Below are positions 2,234 through 25,301 of a stretch of DNA of 39,508 nt, in pieces; positions within the stretch are counted from its first letter, which is position 1, and every line of letters starts with the position of its first letter. The DNA is from Paludibacter sp. GTDB lineage: Bacteria > Bacteroidota > Bacteroidia > Bacteroidales > Paludibacteraceae. The notes under the pieces are model-generated. The model did not search any database, was not told where the DNA came from, and saw nothing but the letters and a program-made list of their open reading frames with translations. The position numbers and the translations under genes are program-made. Location of the stretch: assembly GCA_028692715.1 (NCBI GenBank), contig JAQUWU010000044.1:1-39508 (forward strand). Reading direction: 5' to 3'.

Positions 2234-5200
2234 ATGAAAAAACTAATTTTCAAAAACAATTGGCAGTTTTTGCAATTAAAGCGAATAGCTTTTTTATTAC
2301 TCATGTTTGGAACGAGTCTGTTGTGTTCTGAAGTGAACGCAATTAGCGGTAGTGGAACAGAATCAGATCCTTATCTTTTATCAAATTCTGCTGACATGAA
2401 CACTTTCAAGCAACGTATTGAGGGTGGAGCTCCTTACTTTTATAATTATTGGAAATTAACTCAAGACATCTATTGGACTGGTTCTGGCGGAACAAACAAC
2501 CGTATTGGTTACAATGGTTGTCCATTTACAGGTACATTTGATGGTGGTGGATTTAAGGTTAAAATTGATTATATAGAAAATTCACTTCAGGGCTATAATG
2601 GATTCTTTGGACAGGCGATAAATTGTATTGTGAAGGATTTTACTTTTGAATATAAAGTTATCAACTCAGGCTATTATGGTGCTGGTTTGATTGGCGAAGC
2701 TAAACGAGAAGTAACAATCGATAATGTTCATGTGATTGGTACGGAAATGACACATGTACATGGTGGCCGTTGGGGTGGGCTGATAGGTGTGCTTACAGAT
2801 CCTGGTAAAGTAAATATTTCCTCATGTTCAGTGAATATTAGCGAAATGAAATTGCATGAAACTGGTACTGAGGGCTATTTTGATGTAGGGGGGCTAATAG
2901 GTGTAGTAAATGCCTCATCAGACGCAATCAATATCTCCGATTGTATTGCCAACGTTAAAATTAGTCTTGATGACCCCAACAGTACAAAAGTTACGATGGG
3001 TGGTTTAATTGGTTTTGTAGGTGGAACTGTGAATATTACACGCTGTTTTGTAGGAACAAATATTCCTGGTGAACTAGGCTCAAAATACCACAGAGGAAGT
3101 ATAATTGGATATAATGCAAGTGGTGGAAATGTAATATGTCGTACAATTTATGGTTTAATTTTAGATCCTAAAATTGGGTCAAACCTTGGAGCGTATAGTT
3201 TTCGTGATTGGGGACAAAGAGATACATGGACAGGCAATAATGAGGTTTATGTTCGGTTTGAAAGAAAAGATAATGAATCAAATTATTATCCTGAAAGCGA
3301 TAGGGGAAACGAAAAATGGGGATATGATAAATTGGCAAGCCCAAAAATTTCAAAAACAGCTTATTCCGTGCGTGTTTACCAAGGAGTTGGTGTAAGTACT
3401 ATTAGCGGAGCGAGACATGTTTATTCAAATGAAAATTATATAAATGCTGATGAAGTATTGACTGTTACTCCTACTGTTTCAGCTACAAAAAATCAACTTG
3501 TAAGTTATACATTTACACCTGCTTACAATCACAGCAAAGGTGCAAGTAATAATTATTCTGCAGTACAAGAAGGCGATATTTTGAAACTTACAGCCAAAGT
3601 GAATGGAACCATAAGTGCGAAAATTGTCAATATACCATACCCACAAAATCTTAATTGTGATTTTGATCAATGGCAATCAAAAATAACGTTATCGTGGTCG
3701 GCCAATAATATCGACAATGCCGAGGGAAAATGGTTTATCTACAAACGATTGTTAGGTTCGACATCTGCATTTACTCAGGTAGAAGGTGTGGCAATTAATA
3801 ATGGATCGCAATCATACAAACACGAGACGCTTCTTGATAATAGTCAATTAGAAAAAAAATGGGAGATTTTTGTCTGTTTTGTAGGTAGCAATAGCATTGC
3901 TCCAACTGTACCAACAGTTGATAATGGGTCAACTTTAAATGCATCGACCGAAACAAAGATTGATATTGTACTTGATGCTGAGGGGTTTAATGATAACATT
4001 AAACTAAGTTTCAAAGTGCCATCGCAACTCGATGACAACGATAATTATAGTTACACTGTTTTACGAAAAAAAACAGGGGATGAAAGTTTTGAAACTATCC
4101 AAGAGTCAAGAAGCTTTAGCTCGAGTGTTAAAACAGAATCAGGATATGTATATAATGACAACACTCCATCCAATAGTTGTGATCGATATTTATATAAAAT
4201 CGAGATAGCAGCATTTGACAAAGTTTTTTCGTCAACAACTAATAATGATGTGAGTTTATCCAATGGTAGCAGTATCACTTCTGTAAAAGCGACTAAGGGT
4301 GAATATGCAGGGTATGTACGAATTGCTTGGAGTGTATTTAAACTGAAAGTAGATGATATCGCTCGTTTTAAAATTTTCAGAAAGGTAGCTACCAATGATA
4401 ATGACAAAGGAATAGAAATAGCCACGATCGACACTGAAAATACAAATTATATATATACCGACAATAATATTTTACCTGGTGTATATTACAATTACGACCT
4501 TGTATTATATCAAGATTGTGGTGGTATAGAAACTGAATTAAGCAGAAAAAGTAGCATAGGTTTCTCTCAATCGCTGGGTTCGGTGCTAGGTCGTATTACC
4601 TACGGCAGCGGTCAAGCTGTAGAGAATGTAGGTGTATCGGTATTACGAAACGATTTACAGGGCAATGAAACGCAATATAAGAGCGTTGAGTCGAAAGGCG
4701 AAGGCCGAACTTTGAAGTGGGAACCAGAATCTGAATATTTCAAGGAAATATTTGAAAATGATTTTTGTTATCAGTGTTGGTTGAATCCCTCTGCAGCCAA
4801 TGAGAAAGACGATTTAAAAGTTTTTGACATTTGCGCTGTATCTACCCTGAAACTTTATCGGAATCAAAATCAATACGAATTACAGTTTTTATATATCAAT
4901 ACTGCAAATGTGGTAACAACTACGACAGGAAAGGTTATTAAAATTGATGCTAACCGATTTAGCCATATTACACTTACACGTAGCGGAAATGTGATGAAAT
5001 TGTTTGTAGTAAACGATAAGGATTTGACAAATATTACAATAGACTCGATAACAGTTACAGATGCAAGAGAAGTGTTAGCTGAAGTATATCCAGAACCATT
5101 CATAGCTATGGGTTATGATTTTAAAGGATATATAGATGAAGTAAGATTGTGGAACAAAACTTTAAGTTCATCTACAATACTGAAGGATTACAATAGAATT

Positions 5201-8200
5201 CTCACAGGAAGCGAATTGGGTTTAAAGGCCTATTGGACTTTTGACGAAGGTTTGTCTGGCTATTTTTTCGATATATCGAAAGTAGGTACGGTATTTAACG
5301 GCAATCACGGTACTTCAGAACTTTCGAGCAGCGAAATAATTCCTGAAAAGGAACAATTGGCACTTAAAGCATTAACTGATAGCGATGGGAATTATCAAAT
5401 ACGCGGTATTCCATTTACTGGGGAGGGCTGTAGCTATGATATTGTACCTACATTAGGCGTTCATAAATTTAATCCTACACGTCAGCTTCGCTATATAAGC
5501 AATTCATCGCTAGTGCACAATAATACTGATTTTAGTGATATTTCGTCATTTATATTGTCAGGAAGTGTGACCTACCAAGGTGGAACTTATCCTGTGGAAA
5601 ACTGTACTTTTGAAATTGACGATCAAACAGTGGTGGCAAGCAATGGTGAGGCTGTAAAAAGTGATGTGTTTGGTAACTACAGCATTAGTGTGCCTATTGG
5701 CGAACATAAAATTAGGATAAAGAAAAGTGGACATGATTTTGAAAACGATGGTTTGCTGATAGATCCAGAAACTAATGGCAATAAAATATTCAACAAACCC
5801 GAAACTGCCAATTTCTTCGATATCACAAAAGTAAAACTTATCGGACGTATTGTGGGCGGTATGACTGAAAATGATAAAGACCTTGGGTTTGGGGAGTCTG
5901 TAAATAATATAGGTGCTGAAACCATAACACTTACGCCGACAAAAGGACAATATGACTTGAAAACGGTAGATACAACTGAAATTGTATTACACAATCAGGG
6001 TGAATGGAAAAAGACTGATGGTTTGCAAAACGACACCTCTATTGTCCATTATAAAGCTAAAAGTATTCAGATAGATATAAGTCCAGAAACAGGCGAGTTT
6101 GTAGCTTGGGTATATCCTGAAATATATACGGTAAGCAAAATAGAAGATTCGAACTATGCTGAACCATTTTATAATGGTGGAGAGACTTTGGATTTAACTA
6201 TGGTAGCAGTTCCTTCAAATGATATGTTGAAAGAAAGTGTGAGAACATGGAAGGACAGTATATATGTAAACGGCACAGGTGTAGTTGGTTACTACAAAGA
6301 GATTGAGAAGTCCGATACTATCTTTTATAACGAAAAATGGACGCATTATTATCAAGCCACACCTTCGATGAATGTCGTTCAAATGGAAAATGACAAAGCA
6401 GTTGAATATTTCGGAGAAAAGGAATATAGTGTAAAAAACACGGATACATGTATTTCGGATACACTTGATTTAGTAAGCAACGATGGAACTTTGCTGTCGT
6501 ATTTGTTCGGAAAACCTATATTTGTTCAGGGAAAAGAGTACCAATTCAAGTTTAATGCCTACGAGGAGTATAAAAATTATAATACAAATCAAACTATTCG
6601 TTACGCTGTGGAGGATGGTACTGTAAATATTTCGAATAGCATAGCACTCACAGCACCCGAACCTTTAAAGTTGGATAGTTTGGGAGATGTAATTTATCGG
6701 TTTATTGCTGGTGCTCCTGATTTAACTACTGCTACGAGTGCTTTTATGGCCACAGTCCAAATTGGTTCTGTTAGTTATTATTGGGACAAAGGAAGTAGTC
6801 CTATCGAAGTATGGCATATGGGCGATAAAACTACAGGTACCGATTTTATGACCGCAGGTCCAAACCAAATTACAGCAATTTTGCGTGACCCTCCAGGAAG
6901 CCTTAGTAGTTCGTTTATTGAAGAAGGCAGTACCGTATTGACACGCAATAGTTTGTCAACAGGCATTGGGGTGAATACCGAATTGGGATTGACCACATCT
7001 TTTGGCCCATCTGTTACTGCTTTTGTGGGTTTAGGTGTAGGTATTATTACTTCAAGTGAAGTAACGTTGGATATAAGTGCAGGTTTGAGAACTGAGACAA
7101 AACAGAGTTCAAATTTTGAAACGGAAATATCCAGCACTTTTACTGAACGATTTGAAACTTCGGACAATCCGCTGTATGTAGGAAATAGGGGCGATGTGTT
7201 TATTGGCAATTCTACCAATATTCAGTACGGACTCACCAACGGAATAAGTATTCAAAGAAACTATATCGATGCAACTACTAATGCTTCGGGTACTGCATTT
7301 AAAGAAAAAACGGTAGGTTCGACCAAGTATTCAATTGCACCATCGGTTGCGCTGGCTTACGGACAAAACTTCGATACACGATTTGCTTTTACGCAGGTGG
7401 AAATCGAAGAAATCATGATCCCTAAATGGCAAGAAAACTTAGCCATTTTGCTTAAACCAGTAGGAACAACGGTGAATACTGCACTGATTACTACTCCTGT
7501 ATATGTATCGAAATTGTCTCACAGTGATGCTAATTTTGGGAAGTTAAATACAGACAAAGATGCTTTTGGTAGCTCGGCTGTTGAGCAAAATAAATTCGAT
7601 GATGGACCAAGTTATAAAATATATTTTCCTACTGCTTACAATAAAGCTGATTTTAAAGTGGACTCTGTAATGTGGTTTAATAACCAGATAAATGGGTGGG
7701 TAAATGTGTTGAGACAAAACGAGCAAGAGAAGGTTGCCATGGGGAAATTGGGTAACTATAGTTTTGGCTCAGGGTCAAGTATCTCGTATTCGAAAACAAG
7801 TGCTTCATCCAAAACAATTACCACAACTTTCAATACAATGATTAATCCAAGTATTGGATTAGTGACTGGTGGACAAATAATGGGTATTGGTTTGGAACTT
7901 TCGGCTAAAGTTGAGTTTGTGGCAGAATTGGAAGTTTCGGGCGGCACTACTAAACAAAGTTCTATCAGCTCGGGATTCACGCTGAAAGATGAGGGTGATG
8001 ACGATGAAATAACTGTCGATTATGGTATGACTCCATCGGGTACGATTGCGTTTAAAACTCGTGGTGGAAGAACTTCTTGTCCTTATGAAGAGGTTCAGTA
8101 CACAAAATACTTCGAGCCTGGAGAGCACATCCTGAGCGAAGGAACCATGCAGATTGAAGTGCCAAAAATTGATATTGATGGCAGTGATCAGGCATTGGCT

Positions 8201-11200
8201 GTGCCAGCAAATAAAACAGCTAAATTCAATTTAGCCATGAAAAACGAATCGGAAACTGACGAAGATGTTTGGTTCCAGCTAATAGTGGATGAAGAATCAA
8301 ATCCTTATGGTGCTGAATTGAAAATTGATGGCGCTGCAATTGGAAATGGTCGATTGTTTTTAGTAAAAGCTGGCGAGGTACTTACTAAAGTACTTACAGT
8401 GGCTAAAGGAACGGCCGATGTGTATGAAAATATTGCCTTGGTGCTTCGCTCTGAATGTCAAAGTGATCCTACCGATTTTATGCCAGATATTGCTGATACT
8501 GTAAGAATTAAACGCATCGAGTTTGTTCCAGCATGTAGCGAAGTGATATTAAAGAGTCCTGTGAATAATTGGATAGTAAATACAAAAACAAATGATACAC
8601 TCGAAGTCGTTCTCGATGGATATGACTTTAATTTTGTAAACTTCGGTTATGTGCAGCTCGAATATCGTTCTATATCGGAGACAGAATGGACTGCGCTGAT
8701 GAAATTCTATGGCAACCAGAATATTTATGATAATGTGCAGGGATTGAAAACATTGATTCCTGATGGAACGCAAAGTATTAAATACAATTGGGTACAGAAT
8801 ACCATGCCAGATGGAGAGTATGAACTTAGAGCGAAAGCAGTTTGTGTGAATGTGGACAATGAATACAAAATTATTGATGAAATATCAGAATTTACTACTG
8901 ATGCTGTAAGTGGAAGAAAAGATTTTAGTATTCCACAGGCTTTAGGAAGTCCATCACCTGCTAATGGAATTTATTCTCTGGGTGATGAAATTGCTATCAC
9001 TTTCAACGAAGCTATTCGCACAGGAATGCTTAGTTCTAATAATTTCAGTGTCAAAGCTATTCTCAATGGAGAACTCATTGCTGAGCCTGTTGGAGGTCTT
9101 GCTTTTTCAGGAACTGAATATGCTTACACCGAACTACCTATATACAATAGTGGTTCGTTCAGTATAGAAACCTGGTTTAAACGCGAAAATAATACAGCTG
9201 GAACTTTGTTCTCTTATGGTTTGGGTGACGAAATTATTTCGCTAGCCTTCGATACTCAGGGACATGCTCTTGTGACAATTGGAAGTGAAACGCTGGTGTC
9301 CACACAAACCATAAGCAATACAACTAGAACATGGAAATCTGTGGGACTTAGCTATGACCGTGAACAGAAAATGGTGTCGGTTTATGCTTGGCAAGACAGT
9401 GATCCAACTATCAAATTATTCGAAAAACAATTGTTTACAGCAACGGCTCCTTCGCAAGGTCGATTGTATGTAGGTTCGAAGTTGGATGGTAGCAATGGTT
9501 TTATAGGTGCTACAGCAATGATGCATTTTTACGATATTTATCGTGACGATACCGAAATGTCGGCTTCGAAAAACGAAAGCAAATCGGGCACTGAACCCAA
9601 TTTGGTGGGATTGTGGAATATGGACGAAGGGGAAGGCACAATCGCTACCGACAAAGCTCGTTCGCGCAATATGGTGGTGCAAAGTGCGTGGTATTTATAT
9701 CCAGCCGGCAAATCAATTGCGTTCGATGGTGCAACTCAATCCGCTACAATTCCTGGAGATAAGTGTGTTTTCCGTCCTTACGACGATTTCAGTATTGAAT
9801 TTTGGTTCAAAGCTGCAGATCAGCAAAATGCTACTCTTTTTGCAATGGGAACAGCTATGGATATAAGTTTTGATGCCTCTCATAACTTGATTTTGAACAC
9901 TGTGAAAGACAGTCAGCAACTTACTGCTACCAATTTGTTAGATGATAAATGGCATCATTTAGCTATGGCAGTCAAACGAAATGGTTCTACCAATGCCTTG
10001 ATTGATGGAGTAGTAGTTTCAACTTTTGCTACTACTAAGCTTTTCGAAAGTTCAGTGGGAGGCGGGTTCTGTTATCTCGGTGTGAAATACAGCGAAAATA
10101 TGGAAACAGGAACGCCAGTGTACGATAATCACTTTAAAGGGAATATTGATGAACTACGTATTTGGAACAACGCACTTACTACAGGTGCTGTGGCATTAAA
10201 TAAAAATAACAAATTGAGTGCTACAGAAAATGGATTGTTGGCTTACTATCCATTCGAACAATGGACTCGCAATACAGATGGTTCGTACAGTGTGCTCGAA
10301 TGGACAAAAGACATGACTGACGAAAGTCTCGCATTGGCAGGAAACTCAGTGGTTTCTACTGTAGCTGTAGGCTTGAAAGATGTACGTCCAGTGAAAGATG
10401 TGGCTCATAGCTTTACTTCGTCCGATAACAAAGTGGTGCTGAATATTACCGAAGATTTGTACAAGATTGAAGGTGTAACACTTGAAGTTTCTGCCAATGG
10501 GATTTTGGATATGTATGGCAACGAATCGAAACCCATAACATGGGTGGCCTACGTAAATCGAAATAATCTGGAATGGGGAACATCTGAATTAAATTTTGTA
10601 ATGCAAGAATCTGAAAATCTTTCATTTACTGCTGTTGTGAGCAATTCGGGTGCCGAGCAAGCTGACTATTTTATCGGGGATATTCCTTATTGGTTATCAG
10701 TAAATTATACTCAGGGAAGTTTGCAACCACTTTCGAACAAAGTGCTTACATTCACAGTGTCGCCACAAATAAATATTGGAAGTTACGATGCTTCATTGTC
10801 TCTCACGGGTACCAACAATGTTCGCAAAGTATTGGCATTGCAACTTAAAGTGACGGGGCAACGCCCAGACTGGACAGTGAATCCAAACGACTTTGAACAC
10901 TCGATGAATATCACTGGAAGTATACTTATTGAGAATAGGCCCAAAGAAGACTGCGACGATTTGCTTGCGGCATTCATCGGTGATAAATGCGTAGGTGTAA
11001 CTTCTCCAACTTATGTAGGAACTAGTAATGCATACTTTACATTTGCCGACATATATGGTAATGCTGCTGATAATAACAAACCGCTTACTTTTAAACTTTG
11101 GGAGGCATCTTCTGGACGTATTTACCCTGAAGTAGTTTGCTCAGTGAACGATATTAGTTTCGTGCCTTATAAAACATTAGGAGATATCAACTCCCCAGTT

Positions 11201-12361
11201 GTTTTTAATGCGATGGATGTTGTCGAACAACTCATTTCTCTTAAAAAAGGATGGACTTGGATTTCAACAAACTTAGTAAATGATAATCCGACATTGCTTG
11301 CACAGATGAAAAGTTCCTTAGACGTAACGGGTGTTCTTATCAAAGGCCGTGAAGCCTATATACAACAACCTGAATGGGCAGGTACTTTGTCTGAAGTAAC
11401 AGAAAAAAATATGTATGTGGTAAATTCAACACAAGACTATTCAATGCAATTGAAAGGTATAACTGTTGCCCCAGAACTTAGTCCTATTGAATTGAAAACA
11501 GGCTGGAACTGGATAGGCTATATTCCAAACTTTAGCAACACAGTAAAAAATGCTTTAGCGGGAGTCAATGCTAATGACGGTGATTTGGTAAAAGGACAAG
11601 TAGGTTATTCATCTTACACAGATGTAAATGGTTGGATTGGAAGTTTATCGTATATGCAAGCAGGAAAAGGATATATGTATTATTCTAAAAATACAACAAC
11701 ACAAAGTTTTGTATATCCATCGTCAGCCTCACAACAATCAAGAGTGAATCGTATGGCCACAAGCGAAAGCAATAATAAATGGACGGTTGAAGCTAGTAAC
11801 TATGCAGGTTCAATGACTATCACGGCTATTGTAATAAACGATAACATTGAAGAACGCAGCAATGAAATTGAAATTGCAGCATTTAGCGGCACTGAGTGTC
11901 GCGGTTCTGCAATGCTACAGTATATAGAAAGTTTGGATAGGTATATAGGTTTCTTAATGATTTATGGAGATAATAACGAAGCAATAGGTCTTCGGGTGTA
12001 CGACCATAAAAACGATAAGGAATCGATTGCTAATAATACTACTCTGCCTTATATTACTGATGCTATTTATGGTTCGCCCGACAAACCTTACTCGGTTAAT
12101 ATAGGAACTACTGAATTAAATAGCTTATTTCAATCGGAACTAAGTTTGTATCCAAATCCTGTTCTTAACGACCTACACATTATTCATTTGTTGGATGTAT
12201 TAGACTTGTTAGAAATTATGGACATGAGTGGTCGTACTCTTATTCGTGAGTATAAATTCAATAAATCAACAGTAAAAGTATCTGCTCTCGAAAGTGGTAT
12301 GTATATCATTAAACTTACACAAGGTAAGGATGTGCGAATGATGAAGTTTGTTAAAAAATAA
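2234..12361 (+). CDS. Giant type IX-secreted multidomain protein (GLUG, Fn3, LamG)
   Basis: This protein of 3375 residues starts with a signal peptide (about 1-36). Next comes a segment with repeated GGLIG-type motifs resembling GLUG repeats (about 130-290). Fibronectin III-like modules follow (about 465-790). A LamG/concanavalin-like module (about 840-1000) is inserted in carboxypeptidase-regulatory-like folds that resume at about 1045-1200. The centre (about 1200-2200) is long and I cannot assign it. Two more LamG-like modules lie at about 2290-2460 and 2490-2670, flanked by Ig-like stretches. A BACON-like region is at about 2775-2870. The last 70 residues (from SLYPNPVLND to the terminal MMKFVKK) are a type A Por-system sorting domain. 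The product is therefore expected to be exported by Sec, moved across the outer membrane by the type IX system and anchored or released. The LamG modules suggest glycan or protein binding. No catalytic motif is evident. Confidence 0.88.
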   Translation: MKKLIFKNNWQFLQLKRIAFLLLMFGTSLLCSEVNAISGSGTESDPYLLSNSADMNTFKQRIEGGAPYFYNYWKLTQDIYWTGSGGTNNRIGYNGCPFTGTFDGGGFKVKIDYIENSLQGYNGFFGQAINCIVKDFTFEYKVINSGYYGAGLIGEAKREVTIDNVHVIGTEMTHVHGGRWGGLIGVLTDPGKVNISSCSVNISEMKLHETGTEGYFDVGGLIGVVNASSDAINISDCIANVKISLDDPNSTKVTMGGLIGFVGGTVNITRCFVGTNIPGELGSKYHRGSIIGYNASGGNVICRTIYGLILDPKIGSNLGAYSFRDWGQRDTWTGNNEVYVRFERKDNESNYYPESDRGNEKWGYDKLASPKISKTAYSVRVYQGVGVSTISGARHVYSNENYINADEVLTVTPTVSATKNQLVSYTFTPAYNHSKGASNNYSAVQEGDILKLTAKVNGTISAKIVNIPYPQNLNCDFDQWQSKITLSWSANNIDNAEGKWFIYKRLLGSTSAFTQVEGVAINNGSQSYKHETLLDNSQLEKKWEIFVCFVGSNSIAPTVPTVDNGSTLNASTETKIDIVLDAEGFNDNIKLSFKVPSQLDDNDNYSYTVLRKKTGDESFETIQESRSFSSSVKTESGYVYNDNTPSNSCDRYLYKIEIAAFDKVFSSTTNNDVSLSNGSSITSVKATKGEYAGYVRIAWSVFKLKVDDIARFKIFRKVATNDNDKGIEIATIDTENTNYIYTDNNILPGVYYNYDLVLYQDCGGIETELSRKSSIGFSQSLGSVLGRITYGSGQAVENVGVSVLRNDLQGNETQYKSVESKGEGRTLKWEPESEYFKEIFENDFCYQCWLNPSAANEKDDLKVFDICAVSTLKLYRNQNQYELQFLYINTANVVTTTTGKVIKIDANRFSHITLTRSGNVMKLFVVNDKDLTNITIDSITVTDAREVLAEVYPEPFIAMGYDFKGYIDEVRLWNKTLSSSTILKDYNRILTGSELGLKAYWTFDEGLSGYFFDISKVGTVFNGNHGTSELSSSEIIPEKEQLALKALTDSDGNYQIRGIPFTGEGCSYDIVPTLGVHKFNPTRQLRYISNSSLVHNNTDFSDISSFILSGSVTYQGGTYPVENCTFEIDDQTVVASNGEAVKSDVFGNYSISVPIGEHKIRIKKSGHDFENDGLLIDPETNGNKIFNKPETANFFDITKVKLIGRIVGGMTENDKDLGFGESVNNIGAETITLTPTKGQYDLKTVDTTEIVLHNQGEWKKTDGLQNDTSIVHYKAKSIQIDISPETGEFVAWVYPEIYTVSKIEDSNYAEPFYNGGETLDLTMVAVPSNDMLKESVRTWKDSIYVNGTGVVGYYKEIEKSDTIFYNEKWTHYYQATPSMNVVQMENDKAVEYFGEKEYSVKNTDTCISDTLDLVSNDGTLLSYLFGKPIFVQGKEYQFKFNAYEEYKNYNTNQTIRYAVEDGTVNISNSIALTAPEPLKLDSLGDVIYRFIAGAPDLTTATSAFMATVQIGSVSYYWDKGSSPIEVWHMGDKTTGTDFMTAGPNQITAILRDPPGSLSSSFIEEGSTVLTRNSLSTGIGVNTELGLTTSFGPSVTAFVGLGVGIITSSEVTLDISAGLRTETKQSSNFETEISSTFTERFETSDNPLYVGNRGDVFIGNSTNIQYGLTNGISIQRNYIDATTNASGTAFKEKTVGSTKYSIAPSVALAYGQNFDTRFAFTQVEIEEIMIPKWQENLAILLKPVGTTVNTALITTPVYVSKLSHSDANFGKLNTDKDAFGSSAVEQNKFDDGPSYKIYFPTAYNKADFKVDSVMWFNNQINGWVNVLRQNEQEKVAMGKLGNYSFGSGSSISYSKTSASSKTITTTFNTMINPSIGLVTGGQIMGIGLELSAKVEFVAELEVSGGTTKQSSISSGFTLKDEGDDDEITVDYGMTPSGTIAFKTRGGRTSCPYEEVQYTKYFEPGEHILSEGTMQIEVPKIDIDGSDQALAVPANKTAKFNLAMKNESETDEDVWFQLIVDEESNPYGAELKIDGAAIGNGRLFLVKAGEVLTKVLTVAKGTADVYENIALVLRSECQSDPTDFMPDIADTVRIKRIEFVPACSEVILKSPVNNWIVNTKTNDTLEVVLDGYDFNFVNFGYVQLEYRSISETEWTALMKFYGNQNIYDNVQGLKTLIPDGTQSIKYNWVQNTMPDGEYELRAKAVCVNVDNEYKIIDEISEFTTDAVSGRKDFSIPQALGSPSPANGIYSLGDEIAITFNEAIRTGMLSSNNFSVKAILNGELIAEPVGGLAFSGTEYAYTELPIYNSGSFSIETWFKRENNTAGTLFSYGLGDEIISLAFDTQGHALVTIGSETLVSTQTISNTTRTWKSVGLSYDREQKMVSVYAWQDSDPTIKLFEKQLFTATAPSQGRLYVGSKLDGSNGFIGATAMMHFYDIYRDDTEMSASKNESKSGTEPNLVGLWNMDEGEGTIATDKARSRNMVVQSAWYLYPAGKSIAFDGATQSATIPGDKCVFRPYDDFSIEFWFKAADQQNATLFAMGTAMDISFDASHNLILNTVKDSQQLTATNLLDDKWHHLAMAVKRNGSTNALIDGVVVSTFATTKLFESSVGGGFCYLGVKYSENMETGTPVYDNHFKGNIDELRIWNNALTTGAVALNKNNKLSATENGLLAYYPFEQWTRNTDGSYSVLEWTKDMTDESLALAGNSVVSTVAVGLKDVRPVKDVAHSFTSSDNKVVLNITEDLYKIEGVTLEVSANGILDMYGNESKPITWVAYVNRNNLEWGTSELNFVMQESENLSFTAVVSNSGAEQADYFIGDIPYWLSVNYTQGSLQPLSNKVLTFTVSPQINIGSYDASLSLTGTNNVRKVLALQLKVTGQRPDWTVNPNDFEHSMNITGSILIENRPKEDCDDLLAAFIGDKCVGVTSPTYVGTSNAYFTFADIYGNAADNNKPLTFKLWEASSGRIYPEVVCSVNDISFVPYKTLGDINSPVVFNAMDVVEQLISLKKGWTWISTNLVNDNPTLLAQMKSSLDVTGVLIKGREAYIQQPEWAGTLSEVTEKNMYVVNSTQDYSMQLKGITVAPELSPIELKTGWNWIGYIPNFSNTVKNALAGVNANDGDLVKGQVGYSSYTDVNGWIGSLSYMQAGKGYMYYSKNTTTQSFVYPSSASQQSRVNRMATSESNNKWTVEASNYAGSMTITAIVINDNIEERSNEIEIAAFSGTECRGSAMLQYIESLDRYIGFLMIYGDNNEAIGLRVYDHKNDKESIANNTTLPYITDAIYGSPDKPYSVNIGTTELNSLFQSELSLYPNPVLNDLHIIHLLDVLDLLEIMDMSGRTLIREYKFNKSTVKVSALESGMYIIKLTQGKDVRMMKFVKK

Positions 12362-20410: not shown

Positions 20411-21958
20411 ATGGCTTCACAAGAAGATGTTTTTAAAAAACTGATTGCTCATTGCAAGGAATACGGTTTTGTATTTCCTTCGAGCGAAATTTACGACGGT
20501 CTTGCTGCCGTTTACGATTACGGACAAAATGGTGTAGAATTGAAAAACAATATTAAAAAATATTGGTGGGACAGCATGGTATTACTCCACGAAAATGTTG
20601 TTGGTATTGATGCTGCTATTTTTATGCACCCAACAACTTGGAAAGCTTCGGGACATGTGGATGCTTTTAATGATCCGTTAATTGACAACAAAGACAGTAA
20701 AAAACGTTATCGTGCCGATGTATTGATTGAAGATCTTTTGGCAAAATACGATGATAAAATGAACAAAGAAGTGGAAAAAGCCGCAAAACGTTTTGGCGAT
20801 AGCTTTGACGAAGCCGTTTTCCGCTCTACAAACGAACGTGTGAAAGAAAATCAGGCTAAACGGGATGAGATTTATGCTCGTTTTGTTAAGGCTCTGAACG
20901 ATACTAATCTTGCTGAGCTTAAAGCCATTATAGAAGATTACGAAGTGGTTTGTCCAATAAGCGGAACCCGCAACTGGACTGATGTTCGTCAGTTTAATTT
21001 AATGTTTTCTACCGAAATAGGTTCAACCGCCGAAGGGGCAATGAAAATTTATCTACGTCCTGAAACTGCTCAGGGGATTTTCGTAAACTTCCTGAATGTT
21101 CAAAAAACAGGACGTATGAAAATTCCATTCGGCATAGCTCAAATTGGGAAAGCTTTCCGTAACGAAATTGTTGCCCGCCAGTTTATTTTCCGTATGCGCG
21201 AATTCGAACAAATGGAAATGCAATTCTTTGTTCGTCCGGGTGAAGAAATGAAATGGTTTGAGCACTGGAAAGAATTCCGTTTAAAATGGCACAAAGCACT
21301 AGGTTTGGGTGATCAGAAATATCGTTTTCACGATCATGATAAGCTAGCACATTATGCTAATGCAGCTACCGATATTGAGTTCGAAATGCCTTTCGGATTC
21401 AAAGAAGTAGAAGGAATTCATTCACGTACTGATTTTGACTTAAGCAGTCATGAAAAATTCTCCGGGAAAAATATTAAGTATTTCGATCCGGAGATTAATC
21501 AATCGTATGTACCTTATGTAATTGAAACGTCTATTGGTGTCGATCGTACTTTCTTGTCAATTATGGCAGCATCTTACAAAGAGGAAACCCTTGAAAACGG
21601 GGAAACACGTGTTGTGCTGAGTTTGCCTCCTGTTTTGGCTCCTGTAAAAGCATGTATTATGCCATTAGTGAAAAAAGATGGTCTACCTGAAAAAGCACGT
21701 GAAATTATGAACGATTTGAAGTTCGATTTCAAATGTGGCTACGATGAAAAAGACTCTATCGGAAAACGTTACCGTCGTCAGGATGCAATTGGAACACCAT
21801 TTTGTATTACGGTGGATCATCAAACAGTAGAAGATAATTGCGTAACAATTCGTCATCGCGATACGATGTTGCAGGAACGTGTTGCTATCTCCGATTTAAG
21901 TAAAATCATAGGCGATGCCGTAAATATGAAAAACTTGTTTAAGAAAATTATAGGATAA
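20411..21958 (+). CDS. glyQS: Glycyl-tRNA synthetase, single-chain dimeric type
   Basis: This 515-residue class II synthetase charges tRNA-Gly with glycine. It belongs to the archaeal/eukaryotic-like alpha2 type, not the alpha2beta2 type with separate GlyQ and GlyS. Visible motifs are the N-terminal FPSSEIYDGLAAVYDYGQNGVELKNN, HPTTWKASGHVDAFNDP (about 73-89), motif 2 with FRNEI and RQFIFRMREFEQMEMQFF (about 250-280), and motif 3 with ETSIGVDRTFLSIMAA. The C-terminal anticodon-binding domain is at about 400-500 (PPVLAPVKACIMPL, RHRDTMLQERV). It is a lone gene with its own promoter and terminator, transcribed away from parC. Confidence 0.96.
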   Translation: MASQEDVFKKLIAHCKEYGFVFPSSEIYDGLAAVYDYGQNGVELKNNIKKYWWDSMVLLHENVVGIDAAIFMHPTTWKASGHVDAFNDPLIDNKDSKKRYRADVLIEDLLAKYDDKMNKEVEKAAKRFGDSFDEAVFRSTNERVKENQAKRDEIYARFVKALNDTNLAELKAIIEDYEVVCPISGTRNWTDVRQFNLMFSTEIGSTAEGAMKIYLRPETAQGIFVNFLNVQKTGRMKIPFGIAQIGKAFRNEIVARQFIFRMREFEQMEMQFFVRPGEEMKWFEHWKEFRLKWHKALGLGDQKYRFHDHDKLAHYANAATDIEFEMPFGFKEVEGIHSRTDFDLSSHEKFSGKNIKYFDPEINQSYVPYVIETSIGVDRTFLSIMAASYKEETLENGETRVVLSLPPVLAPVKACIMPLVKKDGLPEKAREIMNDLKFDFKCGYDEKDSIGKRYRRQDAIGTPFCITVDHQTVEDNCVTIRHRDTMLQERVAISDLSKIIGDAVNMKNLFKKIIG

Positions 21959-22226: not shown

Positions 22227-22312
22227 AGTTATGAACAAGATAGTGTTTTGTTATCAGGAAATTAAGTAGTTAGCCTGTTCATAACTGCTGTTTATAAGTT
22301 GTTTATAACAAC
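22227..22312. promoter_or_regulatory. Cluster of inverted and direct repeats upstream of the ncRNA promoter
   Basis: AGTTATGAACA (22227-22237) is repeated as its perfect reverse complement at 22276-22286. Immediately after, GTTTATAA occurs twice (22290-22297 and 22301-22308), and the second copy forms part of the palindrome GTTGTT-TAT-AACAAC (22298-22312). The cluster ends 13 bp before the -33 element, as expected for operators or an activator site. Which protein would bind is unknown. Confidence 0.45.
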
Positions 22313-22324
22313 GAATGAAAAAGC

Positions 22325-22356
22325 TTGCATATTGCATATTCATTGTATTATATTTG
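22325..22356 (+). promoter_or_regulatory. Bacteroidota promoter for the candidate large ncRNA
   Basis: TTG (22325-22327), a 21-nt spacer and TATATTTG (22349-22356), a perfect TAnnTTTG, precede the gene-free structured region. Transcription would start at about 22358-22363. Confidence 0.65.
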
Positions 22357-24068
22357 CAACATGAGTTTCGACTCAAGACATAAAAAACTATGTTGAACGA
22401 TCTTTGAAATACTGATACACCAAAGAAATCAATAGTTAAATATTGAAACAAGATGCAGGGCAACTGATATTTTGAGCGAAGAACGTACTGACTATGAAAA
22501 CATAGTTATCTCCAATATTGTGTGCGCAAGCGTGCAATGAGCTGTATAACACCGTTACGTAGTTTTAAGGTTTCTTGCCAGTTTGAAAAGTACCACGGCG
22601 TCTGACTCTATAAATGAAATTGTGCATTTGAGAAAATGCATCCAGTCTCTTGTAGACTGGAAAACCGGGTAGTCGGGGAAATAGGGAGTGTGATAAAAGC
22701 GATTCGTCACTTTGATGCATTTCCGATTGCAAAGAAAAAAACAGTCATGTTTTAGAAATTGCAATTTAAAAAACTCAGACGATGCAGAACAAAAAAATAA
22801 AAAGTCAAAGAGTTCAATGTTTAGGTATGAAACGAATCTCGTTAATACGGGATAAGTTCCGGGTGAAATGATAAAAGATTATTTTACGCTAGAGACCAAC
22901 ACTTTAGAAAGTATTCAATAAAATGAAGACAATTTGAAATGAACGTTTCTGGCAACGAAATGAACAATTGCATTCACTTGAAAATGAGTTTATAACTGAA
23001 CGAAATTTTGTTGGTCTCGTACCCACAGAGTAAATCGGTCAGGAGTAAAAACAATCTGTAGAAGTGCAGACTTAGTAGCGATACAAAGGAAACACAATAG
23101 ATAAAAACAGAAAATATCAAACCCAGAAGATGACTGAAGTTGAAACCGAACACAGGAAGAACCTCCTTGATAACTGCCCTTAAAAAGTGGAAGGATAGGA
23201 AAAGCAACCAAGGTGAAGCGGAACAATGCATAGCTAACAAAGGCGACTAGAAATAGACGCACAAGTAAAACTGTAGAAGTTGTCAAATGAAAAAACTTTC
23301 GGGCGAAGGTTGGACGAAATGAAGGAAACTGAAAAGGAACTGACATTCACTATCTTCATCACTAAGAATACTAAATGCAGAAATAAAGAAGTTCAATTTT
23401 GAAACCGCCTGTTTCAGGCAAAACTCACGAATTGAGCTGAACCGTTTCAAAGCATTAGCATTGCAAATGGTAGTACTAAAATCAACCTTGTGTTGTTTTG
23501 AAAGAATACAATTTGTCAATTAGTAAAAAACCATGAAGGTTGGCACGAGAAGATAAAGTATTTATCCGTAGATAATTTTATTACAAAAATTATAAAACTA
23601 GATATACAGCATTTTATTACTAATGACTGTTGATTTTGAGTTCTTATTTTCGTTGTGGATTAAATATAGAATCCTTTTAGGAAGAAGCGTTGAAACACAC
23701 ACGGAGCTATATTGAAAGATGGATATTTCGATGAGAAATCATTTGAAACAGAAATTCGACACAAACCGTATATCAAAACAATGATTTTAAACAAATTAAA
23801 TCGTTTTAAATGATGTCGGGGGCTGGTAAAGTGAAAACGAAAAAACAGACAGATATGGTTGTAAAAACACGATCCGAAATGAGCATTTCGACAGGTTGAT
23901 AAAACAATCTCGGAACAACTACGTTAGGAAAGTTTGACGACAATTAAGCCGACAAAAGCCAGCATAATAAACATATCCAAATCAGACTCAGTGAGGTAAC
24001 ATCAGTATTAGAAAAAGATAGTAACATATATTTATGTTTAGAGAGGGCGTCCGTAAGGATGCCCTCTC
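22357..24068 (+). ncRNA. Candidate large structured non-coding RNA, about 1.7 kb
   Basis: No frame holds a credible protein; the short minus-strand ORFs are Phe/Leu/Ser-rich shadows of an A-rich, T-poor plus strand. Perfect stems seen by eye include CAACAT/ATGTTG (22357-22362 with 22390-22395) enclosing a GAGT-UUCG-ACTC hairpin; TCTTTG/CAAAGA (22401, 22421); ACTATG/CATAGT (22491, 22501). A 9-bp stem with GCAA loop (22517-22538), a 7-bp stem with GAGA loop (22623-22640) and a 7-bp stem (22642-22660) follow. Long-range pairs are 22892-22900 with 23010-23018 (9 bp) and 23398-23405 with 23444-23451 (8 bp, around a GCCTG/CAGGC hairpin). Further hairpins are at 23294-23311, 23552-23566 and 23875-23890. 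A 12-bp stem with GTAA loop ends it at 24041-24068. I do not recognise it as RNase P, tmRNA, SRP, 6S, OLE, GOLLD or ROOL. A promoter precedes it. Exact ends are estimates, and it might be two transcripts. Confidence 0.6.
24041..24068. terminator. Strong GTAA-capped hairpin ending the ncRNA region
   Basis: A 12-bp stem from GAGAGGGCGTCC (24041-24052) to GGATGCCCTCTC (24057-24068) has one G-U pair and loop GTAA. No T-run follows on either strand, so it is a transcript-end or stabilising hairpin rather than a textbook terminator. It also lies 30 bp after the stop of the minus-strand PagL-like gene, so it may serve both. Confidence 0.6.
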
Positions 24069-24098
24069 GCTATTTAAAGCAATTTGTAAGGGTTGTTT

Positions 24099-25301
24099 TT
24101 ATTTCTCGGTTATCCTATAACCAACCCGCCATTCGATAAAATCGGATACATGAAAAGCATAATCACGCAAAGTCATTCCAATAAAAATATCATTGTCAAA
24201 ATAATATTTCAGCCCAATTCTTTGATGAAATGCAGGTGATTGATTCAGGGTTTTCTTTCGGTAAAGATATACTGCAGGTTGCAATATAAGTGATAGCCTA
24301 TTTACAACCAATTCATAAGAAGGGAAGATGCTAATCTGTATTTTATCAGCTAAAGGACCTACAACAGGATCAAAATCATTGGTATTAGTTGCTATTTTTG
24401 CAGCTTCTTCAGCATTCACTGTGCTGTTGTAAACAAAATTAATTCCCAATCCAAATTTCGATTTGCGGCTAACCTGACGATTGAAACAGGTGGTGAAACC
24501 AAAGACCGGATACAACAACCCTTCGTATTGTTCAATAATGTCTGAGCTAACCGAATCGACAAAAACAAGATTTTTTGCACCGACAAAAGCAGAAAATTCC
24601 AATTCGTTACGAGGATCAAATTTTGGTAATGTTTGTTTTATAAATTCGGGTTTTTCGTATAAGTTGTACCGTAAACTTACTTTTGGTGCAATGCTATTAA
24701 TTCCGGAATTTGGGATTTTCAATGCTCCGTTCGAAAAGTGAGTCAGACTAAAACCTGTGACTAAATCAATGTTTTTTGTCAGTTCAAAGTCGAGATTTAA
24801 TCCGGCATCGATAAAAAATGATTGTCCGGCTCCAATTGCATTGTTATATTGATTTGTTATAGGATTAAATGATTTCCAGTTGGCTGTAGCGCCGAAACTG
24901 AGTTCGTAATTAAAGGCTCCTTTATCCCAACGAACAAAGGGAGCATTCAGAAATCCAAATAACGCAATGGGTGTTCCAATTTCCTGTGGATTATGAAAAT
25001 CTGCCACATAAGTGCCAAATCCCCATTCAGGATAATTGTAGATTTGTTCCCATAGTTTTTCACCATTGGTTTGCTTCGATATTTTCAGATGAAAATCCTG
25101 ATATTCATCCAGCTTTGTTGCCTGAGCATTTCTACCTCTCAGAAAATCGTTAGTGGAAAAAACATAACCATTCTGATATCCCACTATAATATTTTTGTTT
25201 TCCCAGAAGTTTTTTTTCGAAATTGTATCTGATTCAGTCTGTGCAGTTAATGTAATTGACAATAAAAGACTAAATGTGAATATTAGTTTAAGTTGATTCA
25301 T
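24099..25301 (-). CDS. PagL-like acyloxyacyl hydrolase / lipid A deacylase-type outer-membrane protein
   Basis: This 400-residue protein has a signal peptide (about 1-20, LTAQ). The segment FSLTHFSNGALKIPNSGINS matches the PagL family signature H-x-S-N followed by N-x-G; in PagL the His and Ser of this motif are catalytic. Flanking sequence is beta-strand-like with alternating aromatics, consistent with an outer-membrane barrel. The protein is longer than PagL itself (about 150-170 residues), as are many Bacteroidota members. Its ATG overlaps the RND permease stop (ATGA at 25298-25301), implying translational coupling. Likely activity is removal of a 3-O-linked acyl chain from lipid A, but activity is inferred from the motif only. 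Confidence 0.72.
   Translation of the reverse strand: MNQLKLIFTFSLLLSITLTAQTESDTISKKNFWENKNIIVGYQNGYVFSTNDFLRGRNAQATKLDEYQDFHLKISKQTNGEKLWEQIYNYPEWGFGTYVADFHNPQEIGTPIALFGFLNAPFVRWDKGAFNYELSFGATANWKSFNPITNQYNNAIGAGQSFFIDAGLNLDFELTKNIDLVTGFSLTHFSNGALKIPNSGINSIAPKVSLRYNLYEKPEFIKQTLPKFDPRNELEFSAFVGAKNLVFVDSVSSDIIEQYEGLLYPVFGFTTCFNRQVSRKSKFGLGINFVYNSTVNAEEAAKIATNTNDFDPVVGPLADKIQISIFPSYELVVNRLSLILQPAVYLYRKKTLNQSPAFHQRIGLKYYFDNDIFIGMTLRDYAFHVSDFIEWRVGYRITEK

Follow-up and report, generated by a model that had tools for sequence, protein, structure and literature searches.

A conserved, uncatalogued class of large, predicted structured RNA in Paludibacter with a putative rRNA-like leader and closing helix

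The plus strand of a Paludibacter contig probably carries, at positions 22361-24079, a stand-alone gene whose product is a large structured RNA that functions as such and is completed and folded in the manner proposed in the Discussion. The contig (C69, part of a 4.85-Mb draft genome) was analyzed over 39,508 nucleotides, and that whole stretch is called the window. A sequence-only reading had pointed to this place as a candidate large structured noncoding RNA of a new class, and the folding energy, the covariation and the lack of an Rfam match support that proposal. On comparative evidence, the RNA belongs to a conserved class of large structured RNAs that is as yet uncatalogued. Conserved boundaries, a conserved covarying fold, a closing helix and a boxA-like sequence were seen directly, and no conserved ORF was found. 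The general kind, the large ornate bacterial RNA, is already known; the class and its rRNA-like frame are new as far as our searches reach. We regard it as a large ornate RNA of a new class that probably acts in trans, a role that we infer. The present analysis adds that a helix with a boxA-like element joins the 5' and 3' ends, that repeat boxes are conserved upstream, that the middle of the RNA varies and that a second family has a related frame.

Coding potential of the locus

The glyQS gene (20411-21958; NCBIfam: glycine--tRNA ligase) lies upstream on the same strand as the RNA, and the gene 3' of the RNA is on the minus strand and ends at 24099. No plus-strand ORF of at least 80 aa was found between glyQS and 24099, in agreement with the earlier statement that this intergenic span has no credible gene. 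The longest plus-strand ORF over the window RNA is 47 aa. Across 16 aligned homologues the longest plus-strand ORFs are 45-103 aa at inconsistent positions, and no conserved reading frame was found among them. Two minus-strand ORFs of 88 aa and 118 aa are present, and neither has a Pfam match up to E 1. When compared with 15 relatives using tblastn, the 118-aa ORF gave one partial match (E 4e-8, in L031), which we judged unconvincing, and the 88-aa ORF gave nothing below E 0.028. The check for a decayed gene consists of the ORF lists and these searches of two ORFs against Pfam and 15 relatives, and it is therefore indirect.

Elsewhere in the window a single plus-strand open frame of 3375 aa occupies 2234-12361, and positions 1-81, at the contig edge, are the 3' portion of a 5S rRNA. 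No 16S rRNA was found in the genome's own assembly.

Promoter, ends and parts of the RNA

The features of the locus, all on the plus strand (+), are as follows.

22276-22309 (+): array of three imperfect TGTTNATAAC boxes 5' of the promoter, in tandem and conserved across 19 aligned genus promoters
22325-22356 (+): promoter, with TTG at 22325-22327, 21 bases, and TATATTTG at 22349-22356
22361-24079 (+): putative ncRNA gene, from the predicted start to just beyond the terminator, with conserved ends and covarying structure
22362-22375 (+): 5'-terminal hairpin with a TTCG loop (helix 1; 98.7% of cells paired; two-sided change in 3/5 pairs)
22377-22416 (+): 5' strand of the 5'-3' closing helix, pairing with 24001-24038 (helices 2-4)
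22398-22407 (+): boxA-like CGATCTTTGA, inside the 5' strand of the closing helix
22436-22824 (+): conserved 5' domain, closed by 22436-22448/22812-22824 (helices 7-22)
22623-22660 (+): two adjacent 7-bp hairpins (helices 14 and 15; 93.6% and 95.5% paired)
22664-22678 (+): strongly conserved motif ACCGGGTAGTCGGGG, which is GCCGGGTAGTCGGG in most relatives
22780-22806 (+): conserved A-rich stretch CGATGCAGAACAAAAAAATAAAAAGTC
22830-22975 (+): window-only stretch, missing in the other 15 of 16 aligned copies
23351-23498 (+): second window-only stretch, missing in the other 15 of 16 aligned copies
24001-24038 (+): 3' strand of the 5'-3' closing helix, directly 5' of the terminator hairpin
24041-24068 (+): terminator hairpin GAGAGGGCGTCC-GTAA-GGATGCCCTCTC (helix 54; 96.6% paired; two-sided change in 5/11 pairs)

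The TTG-N21-TATATTTG promoter described earlier was found exactly at 22325-22356, and we take it to be of the Bacteroidales type. TATATTTG is invariant in 19/19 aligned promoters, and the position of the promoter predicts an RNA start at 22361. A strict pattern of the three upstream boxes was scanned in six genomes (G000, G045, G005, G042, G110 and G016). G000 and G045 match once each, at the RNA promoter; there was no match in the carriers G005, G042 and G110, nor in G016. Boxes resembling TGTTNATAAC also lie upstream of other RNA types. DnaA boxes were considered as a possible reading of the repeats.

The closing duplex has energies of -26.4 to -40.0 kcal/mol in the 20 members whose terminator was located by script, these being raw energies with no random control. 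The script missed or misplaced the terminator in L039, L043, L044 and L069. The U tract behind the window terminator is weak, and a terminator scan did not have the hairpin at 24041-24068 among its calls.

The element within the 5' strand of the closing helix resembles the boxA of 16S rRNA leaders and may indicate an rRNA-like leader-trailer design, the evidence for boxA itself being mixed. TCTTTGAA of this element is invariant in 19/19 promoters, conservation that pairing with the 3' end could explain alone. The 10-base core CGNTCTTTGA is also found in the 16S leaders of two genomes of the genus (G016, G018) and one of another family (G725), and is absent from that of G535. It occurred in 2-7 of 5000 shuffles of those three leaders, a core picked post hoc. 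A 19-position boxA profile found the 16S leader of G725 (0/1000 shuffles as high), was borderline for G535 (40/1000), and failed on G018 (395/1000) and G016 (837-856/1000). A model of the promoter plus the first 90 bases, R2, weakly matches both G725 16S leaders (E 0.006).

Folding energy and covariation

The minimum free energy (MFE) of the window RNA is -413.2, compared with a mean of -343.5 (sd 10.4) for dinucleotide shuffles, which is far better than chance (z -6.7; 0/100 as low). Six other members gave z values of -6.3, -9.4, -8.4, -8.4, -3.4 and -3.7, so that the seven span -3.4 to -9.4. For comparison, two coding stretches of the same window gave -2.3 and 0.3; the two members near -3.5 are little past the former value.

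The A-rich plus strand had been described as packed with perfect stems, and the counts bear this out: 13 perfect hairpins have stems of at least 6 bp, compared with a shuffle mean of 3.81 (0/100 shuffles as high). For stems of at least 7 bp there are 5 (mean 1.12; 3/100), and for at least 8 bp there are 2 (mean 0.26; 7/100). The GCAA (22526), GAGA (22630), GTAA (24053) and TTCG (22367) loops are all present. Single pairings from the sequence-only reading fared less evenly. The 9-bp stem with a GCAA loop at 22517-22538 exists, but it comprises 6 Watson-Crick and 3 G-U pairs. Segments 22892-22900 and 23010-23018 are complementary, but nothing supports them as a long-range pair because the 5' strand falls in the window-only stretch 22830-22975 and the 3' strand has local partners in the conserved fold. 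The pairing at 23398-23451 is within the window-only stretch 23351-23498 and therefore beyond the reach of covariation. The adjacent hairpins at 22623-22660 are conserved, with two-sided change in 1 and 2 pairs, respectively.

A consensus structure of 330 pairs in 54 helices was obtained from the 16 aligned copies using RNAalifold. Among 4929 cells, 88.8% are paired, versus 37-41% when the 3' partners are slid. Two-sided changes, although inflated by the relatedness of the copies, occur in 118 pairs and 256 cells, compared with shuffle means of 62.5 and 92.5, and the margin is nonetheless large (0/500 shuffles reach these values). The stems thus covary in the homologues.

As the 330-pair structure was derived from the same 16 sequences, which favors it over the slid versions, two held-out tests were made. 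With a fold derived from 11 relatives, 282/388 pairs form in the window, versus 135-165 of about 380 when slid, with 37 two-sided changes versus 12-23. A fold derived from the genus was then applied to 3/6 second-genus members (L108-L110 left out). Here 211-224 of 314-317 pairs form, versus 105-138 slid, with 30-36 two-sided changes versus 11-23.

Distribution in Paludibacter and its family

A blastn search with 22349-24080 produced a match in 20/100 relatives including the RNA's own genome, all of one genus, Paludibacter; the match in G011 is a 31-base piece only. Sixteen copies, including that of the window, could be aligned over their full extent, start through terminator, and measure 1719 (window copy), 1401-1416 (n = 12), 1150-1151 (n = 2) and 731 (n = 1) bases. 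A model of 22604-22806, R1, identified 16/48 genus genomes and 15/200 genomes of a family sample, 3 of them from a second genus. R2 identified 26/358 family genomes, comprising 19 of the genus, 6 of the second genus and a weak match in G165 that precedes a reading frame; 25/26 matches are at E 9.5e-15 or better. An exact-pattern scan of named species genomes returned 19 contigs, of which 12 are Paludibacter, 1 is Paludibacteraceae and 6 are named only as Bacteroidales, Bacteroidia or Bacteroidetes. One carrier is a Paludibacter jiangxiensis MAG.

Complete relatives keep the promoter, the 5' start and the terminator hairpin around bodies of 0.64-1.72 kb. Within the genus, the G034 copy (L047) is truncated by the contig end, and L046 and L048 (the latter about 640 nt) have kept their ends around divergent interiors. 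With R1, L046 matched only slightly (E 1e-5), and no clear match appeared in L048 or L108-L110.

R2 had no match in 29/48 genus genomes, many of them drafts, so not every member of the genus needs the RNA. Among these 29, and likewise unmatched by blastn and R1, is the complete genome of the type strain, P. propionicigenes WB4 (3,685,504 bp; PMC3072083), which may be one reason that the RNA escaped notice.

The two nearest ORFs on each side (at least 80 aa) mostly differ around 18 genus copies, as expected of a self-contained gene; several copies are at contig ends, and L047 was left out. Only three groups in the genus share neighbors (L043/L044/L045, L038/L046 and L031/L032), and the contexts point to no linked gene. 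In the second genus a larger upstream gene is common to 6/6 copies and a small one to 4/6, which is taken as shared ancestry; the L067 examples of these upstream genes are RlmD-like and TPM-domain. Phage and plasmid records had no match to the RNA copies, and viral contigs had no match to one exact promoter pattern.

Comparison with known RNAs

At gathering score, Rfam 15 had no match over the window RNA or the loci of its relatives, and permissive scans over the RNA gave weak matches only, none convincing. The covariance search thus agrees with the sequence-only reading, which recognized none of the known large RNAs here. No prior description of the Paludibacter RNA was found in the literature, as judged on titles and abstract openings. 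The RNA has the hundreds of nucleotides, the covarying multi-helix fold and the absence of a conserved ORF that mark large ornate bacterial RNAs. GOLLD, ROOL and OLE are not known to combine a boxA-like leader with a helix that closes the 5' and 3' ends.

GOLLD, ROOL and OLE are likewise bacterial RNAs of large size, whose folds are elaborate and covary and whose functions are little understood (PMC12286853). A length of 659 nt is given there for ROOL env-120, and one above 800 nt for many GOLLD members. In the same source GOLLD and ROOL are phage- or prophage-encoded, often near tRNA islands; for the Paludibacter copies no match was seen in phage and plasmid records. The T-large CP group II RNAs are also large structured bacterial RNAs, of about 900 nt, but Deinococcus-Thermus, Firmicutes and Proteobacteria are phyla named for them (PMC8637638), and the Paludibacter RNA has no Rfam group II intron match.

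The nearest likeness for the ends is an rRNA operon, with a boxA-like element early and a long end-to-end helix, as in E. coli pre-16S rRNA (PMC10250234). According to that source, boxA and the pairing element boxC are 18 or 19 nt apart in Enterobacteriaceae, and in E. coli boxA and the leader-trailer helix act in 30S biogenesis. The Paludibacter RNA differs in that it encloses no rRNA and its boxA-like bases are themselves in the helix.

Similar promoters in other Bacteroidales

Across the order R2 matched 9/393 genomes at E 0.01, own genome included, which is not much more than chance could yield at such a cut-off. Nine of these loci were read along with G165, and among them are a 16S leader, leaders of coding genes and candidate RNAs. 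One of them, L107, duplicates the L102 leader and was counted only. A weak match (E 0.0096) in the family coded f20, L106, resembles a 1.15-kb RNA with an MFE z of -8.4. The f20 family has a blastn match in 25/101 genomes, and 21 of its loci were examined (L106, L137, L139, L141-L150, L152, L153, L155-L160). The box AGGAGTTC[AT]TTGACA is present in 21/21. In 17/21, TTTGAACTCCT followed by a terminator-like hairpin occurs 0.7-1.1 kb downstream; the two were not found in L139, L141, L142 and L157 within the DNA examined. The f20 RNAs are about 0.7-1.2 kb, with a repeat-box promoter, a boxA and, in 17/21 loci, a matching 3' strand ahead of the terminator. Fifteen of them fold jointly into 170 pairs, 89.3% paired and 67 with two-sided change, these being raw figures without controls.

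R3, a joint promoter model, matched 126/384 genomes of the order at E 0.01 and 35 at E 1e-4. Matches at E 0.01 were not trusted because there were too many. In a control sample of the phylum, 3/385 genomes matched at 1e-4, namely the one that carries the window, a second from its order and a third from outside that order. Twenty-eight R3 loci were read (L165-L192). Twenty are RNAs of a CAAG type (L165, L166, L167, L168, L170-L174, L176-L181, L183, L184, L187, L188, L190), L186 is another RNA, and the remaining 7 are rRNA-type promoters, a 16S leader or a coding gene. CAAG-type RNAs start with CAAGTGAG-N-GATAAAAG or similar and come from 14 families of Bacteroidales. Thirteen aligned members have a 3' ATAACAGTAACTTGGC region in common, and those whose end could be located have a terminator after about 0.3-0.6 kb; the thirteen give 38 pairs, 25 with two-sided change, again as raw figures without controls. 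Rfam had no match in the scanned loci of other RNA types in Bacteroidales families. L104/L186 (family f34) form a candidate RNA of about 0.75 kb with a similar promoter, a strong terminator-like hairpin and an MFE z of -3.3.

Tentatively, the window RNA might be one member of a Bacteroidales-wide, fast-evolving superfamily of large RNAs, largely one copy per genome, with a common repeat-box promoter, a build like a miniature rRNA operon (boxA leader, closing helix, terminator) and interiors past alignment. There is also a considerable chance, though not an even one, that the common frame arose by convergence, with long RNAs of unrelated origin making use of one promoter and boxA device. The bodies from Paludibacteraceae and f20 are not alignable and have no core in common by eye, while the promoter, the boxA position, the closing helix and the terminator are common to both, as convergence would have it. 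Against it, promoter and leader align across both families over about 150 model positions. Convergence is compatible with the main reading of the window RNA.

Discussion

For the RNA itself we propose the following working. Transcription would start at the repeat-box promoter, and the boxA-like element would recruit NusB/S10 antitermination factors, as in rRNA operons. Antitermination would carry the polymerase past Rho to the end of the long untranslated transcript. The 5' segment would then meet the 3' segment, the closing helix forming just before the terminator, and the enclosed domains would fold compactly and stably, as an RNA or an RNA-protein particle working in trans in the way of OLE, ROOL or GOLLD. 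We infer transcription, antitermination, stability, the trans role and any partner. An rRNA-like program of completion and folding is proposed because the boxA-like core occurs in 16S leaders and because of the E. coli leader-trailer analogy. Mostly differing neighbors, self-contained ends and a search that turned up no conserved reading frame fit a trans-acting RNA or particle. The best analogy, as distinct from a proven identity, would be a scaffold or an oligomeric particle of the kind that OLE, ROOL and GOLLD represent.

Other readings of the locus are considerably less probable. One is that the RNA is a decoy which presents boxA and titrates NusB/S10, the remainder only stabilizing the element or timing its exposure. 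A boxA-like element similarly placed behind a 5' hairpin in two families is in keeping with this, but helices with two-sided change span the whole molecule, beyond the need of a short decoy, and boxA is paired within the predicted closing helix. We consider a decoy improbable. A small-protein messenger or dual-function RNA is more improbable still: small ORFs are present, as in any sequence, but on the plus strand they reach only 47 aa in the window and 45-103 aa at shifting positions among the 16 homologues, and those on the minus strand lack Pfam matches and are hardly conserved. The position of the RNA, 3' of glyQS and on its strand, could suggest a long cis-acting leader or a 3' extension of a neighboring gene, which we think very unlikely given a conserved promoter and terminator of its own, a downstream gene on the opposite strand and neighbors that mostly change from copy to copy. 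The least probable origin, to be given hardly any weight, is a retroelement RNA, such as a group II intron that is degenerate or unusual, which would suit the comparable size, A-richness, GNRA loops and scattered genomic positions, but Rfam introns do not match the window up to E 5 or the RNA of five relatives up to E 1, one crude domain-V pattern finds nothing, and the RNA has its own promoter and terminator, 5'-3' closure and no conserved ORF.

A stand-alone large structured RNA thus remains the probable reading. With 13/16 aligned copies measuring 1.4-1.7 kb, the RNA is among the larger ones of its kind, and we know of no RNA of comparable size from the same bacterial group. Searching with its promoter also brought up further RNAs in other families of Bacteroidales. 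The rRNA-like frame offers a testable idea of how bacteria may finish and fold very long untranslated RNAs.
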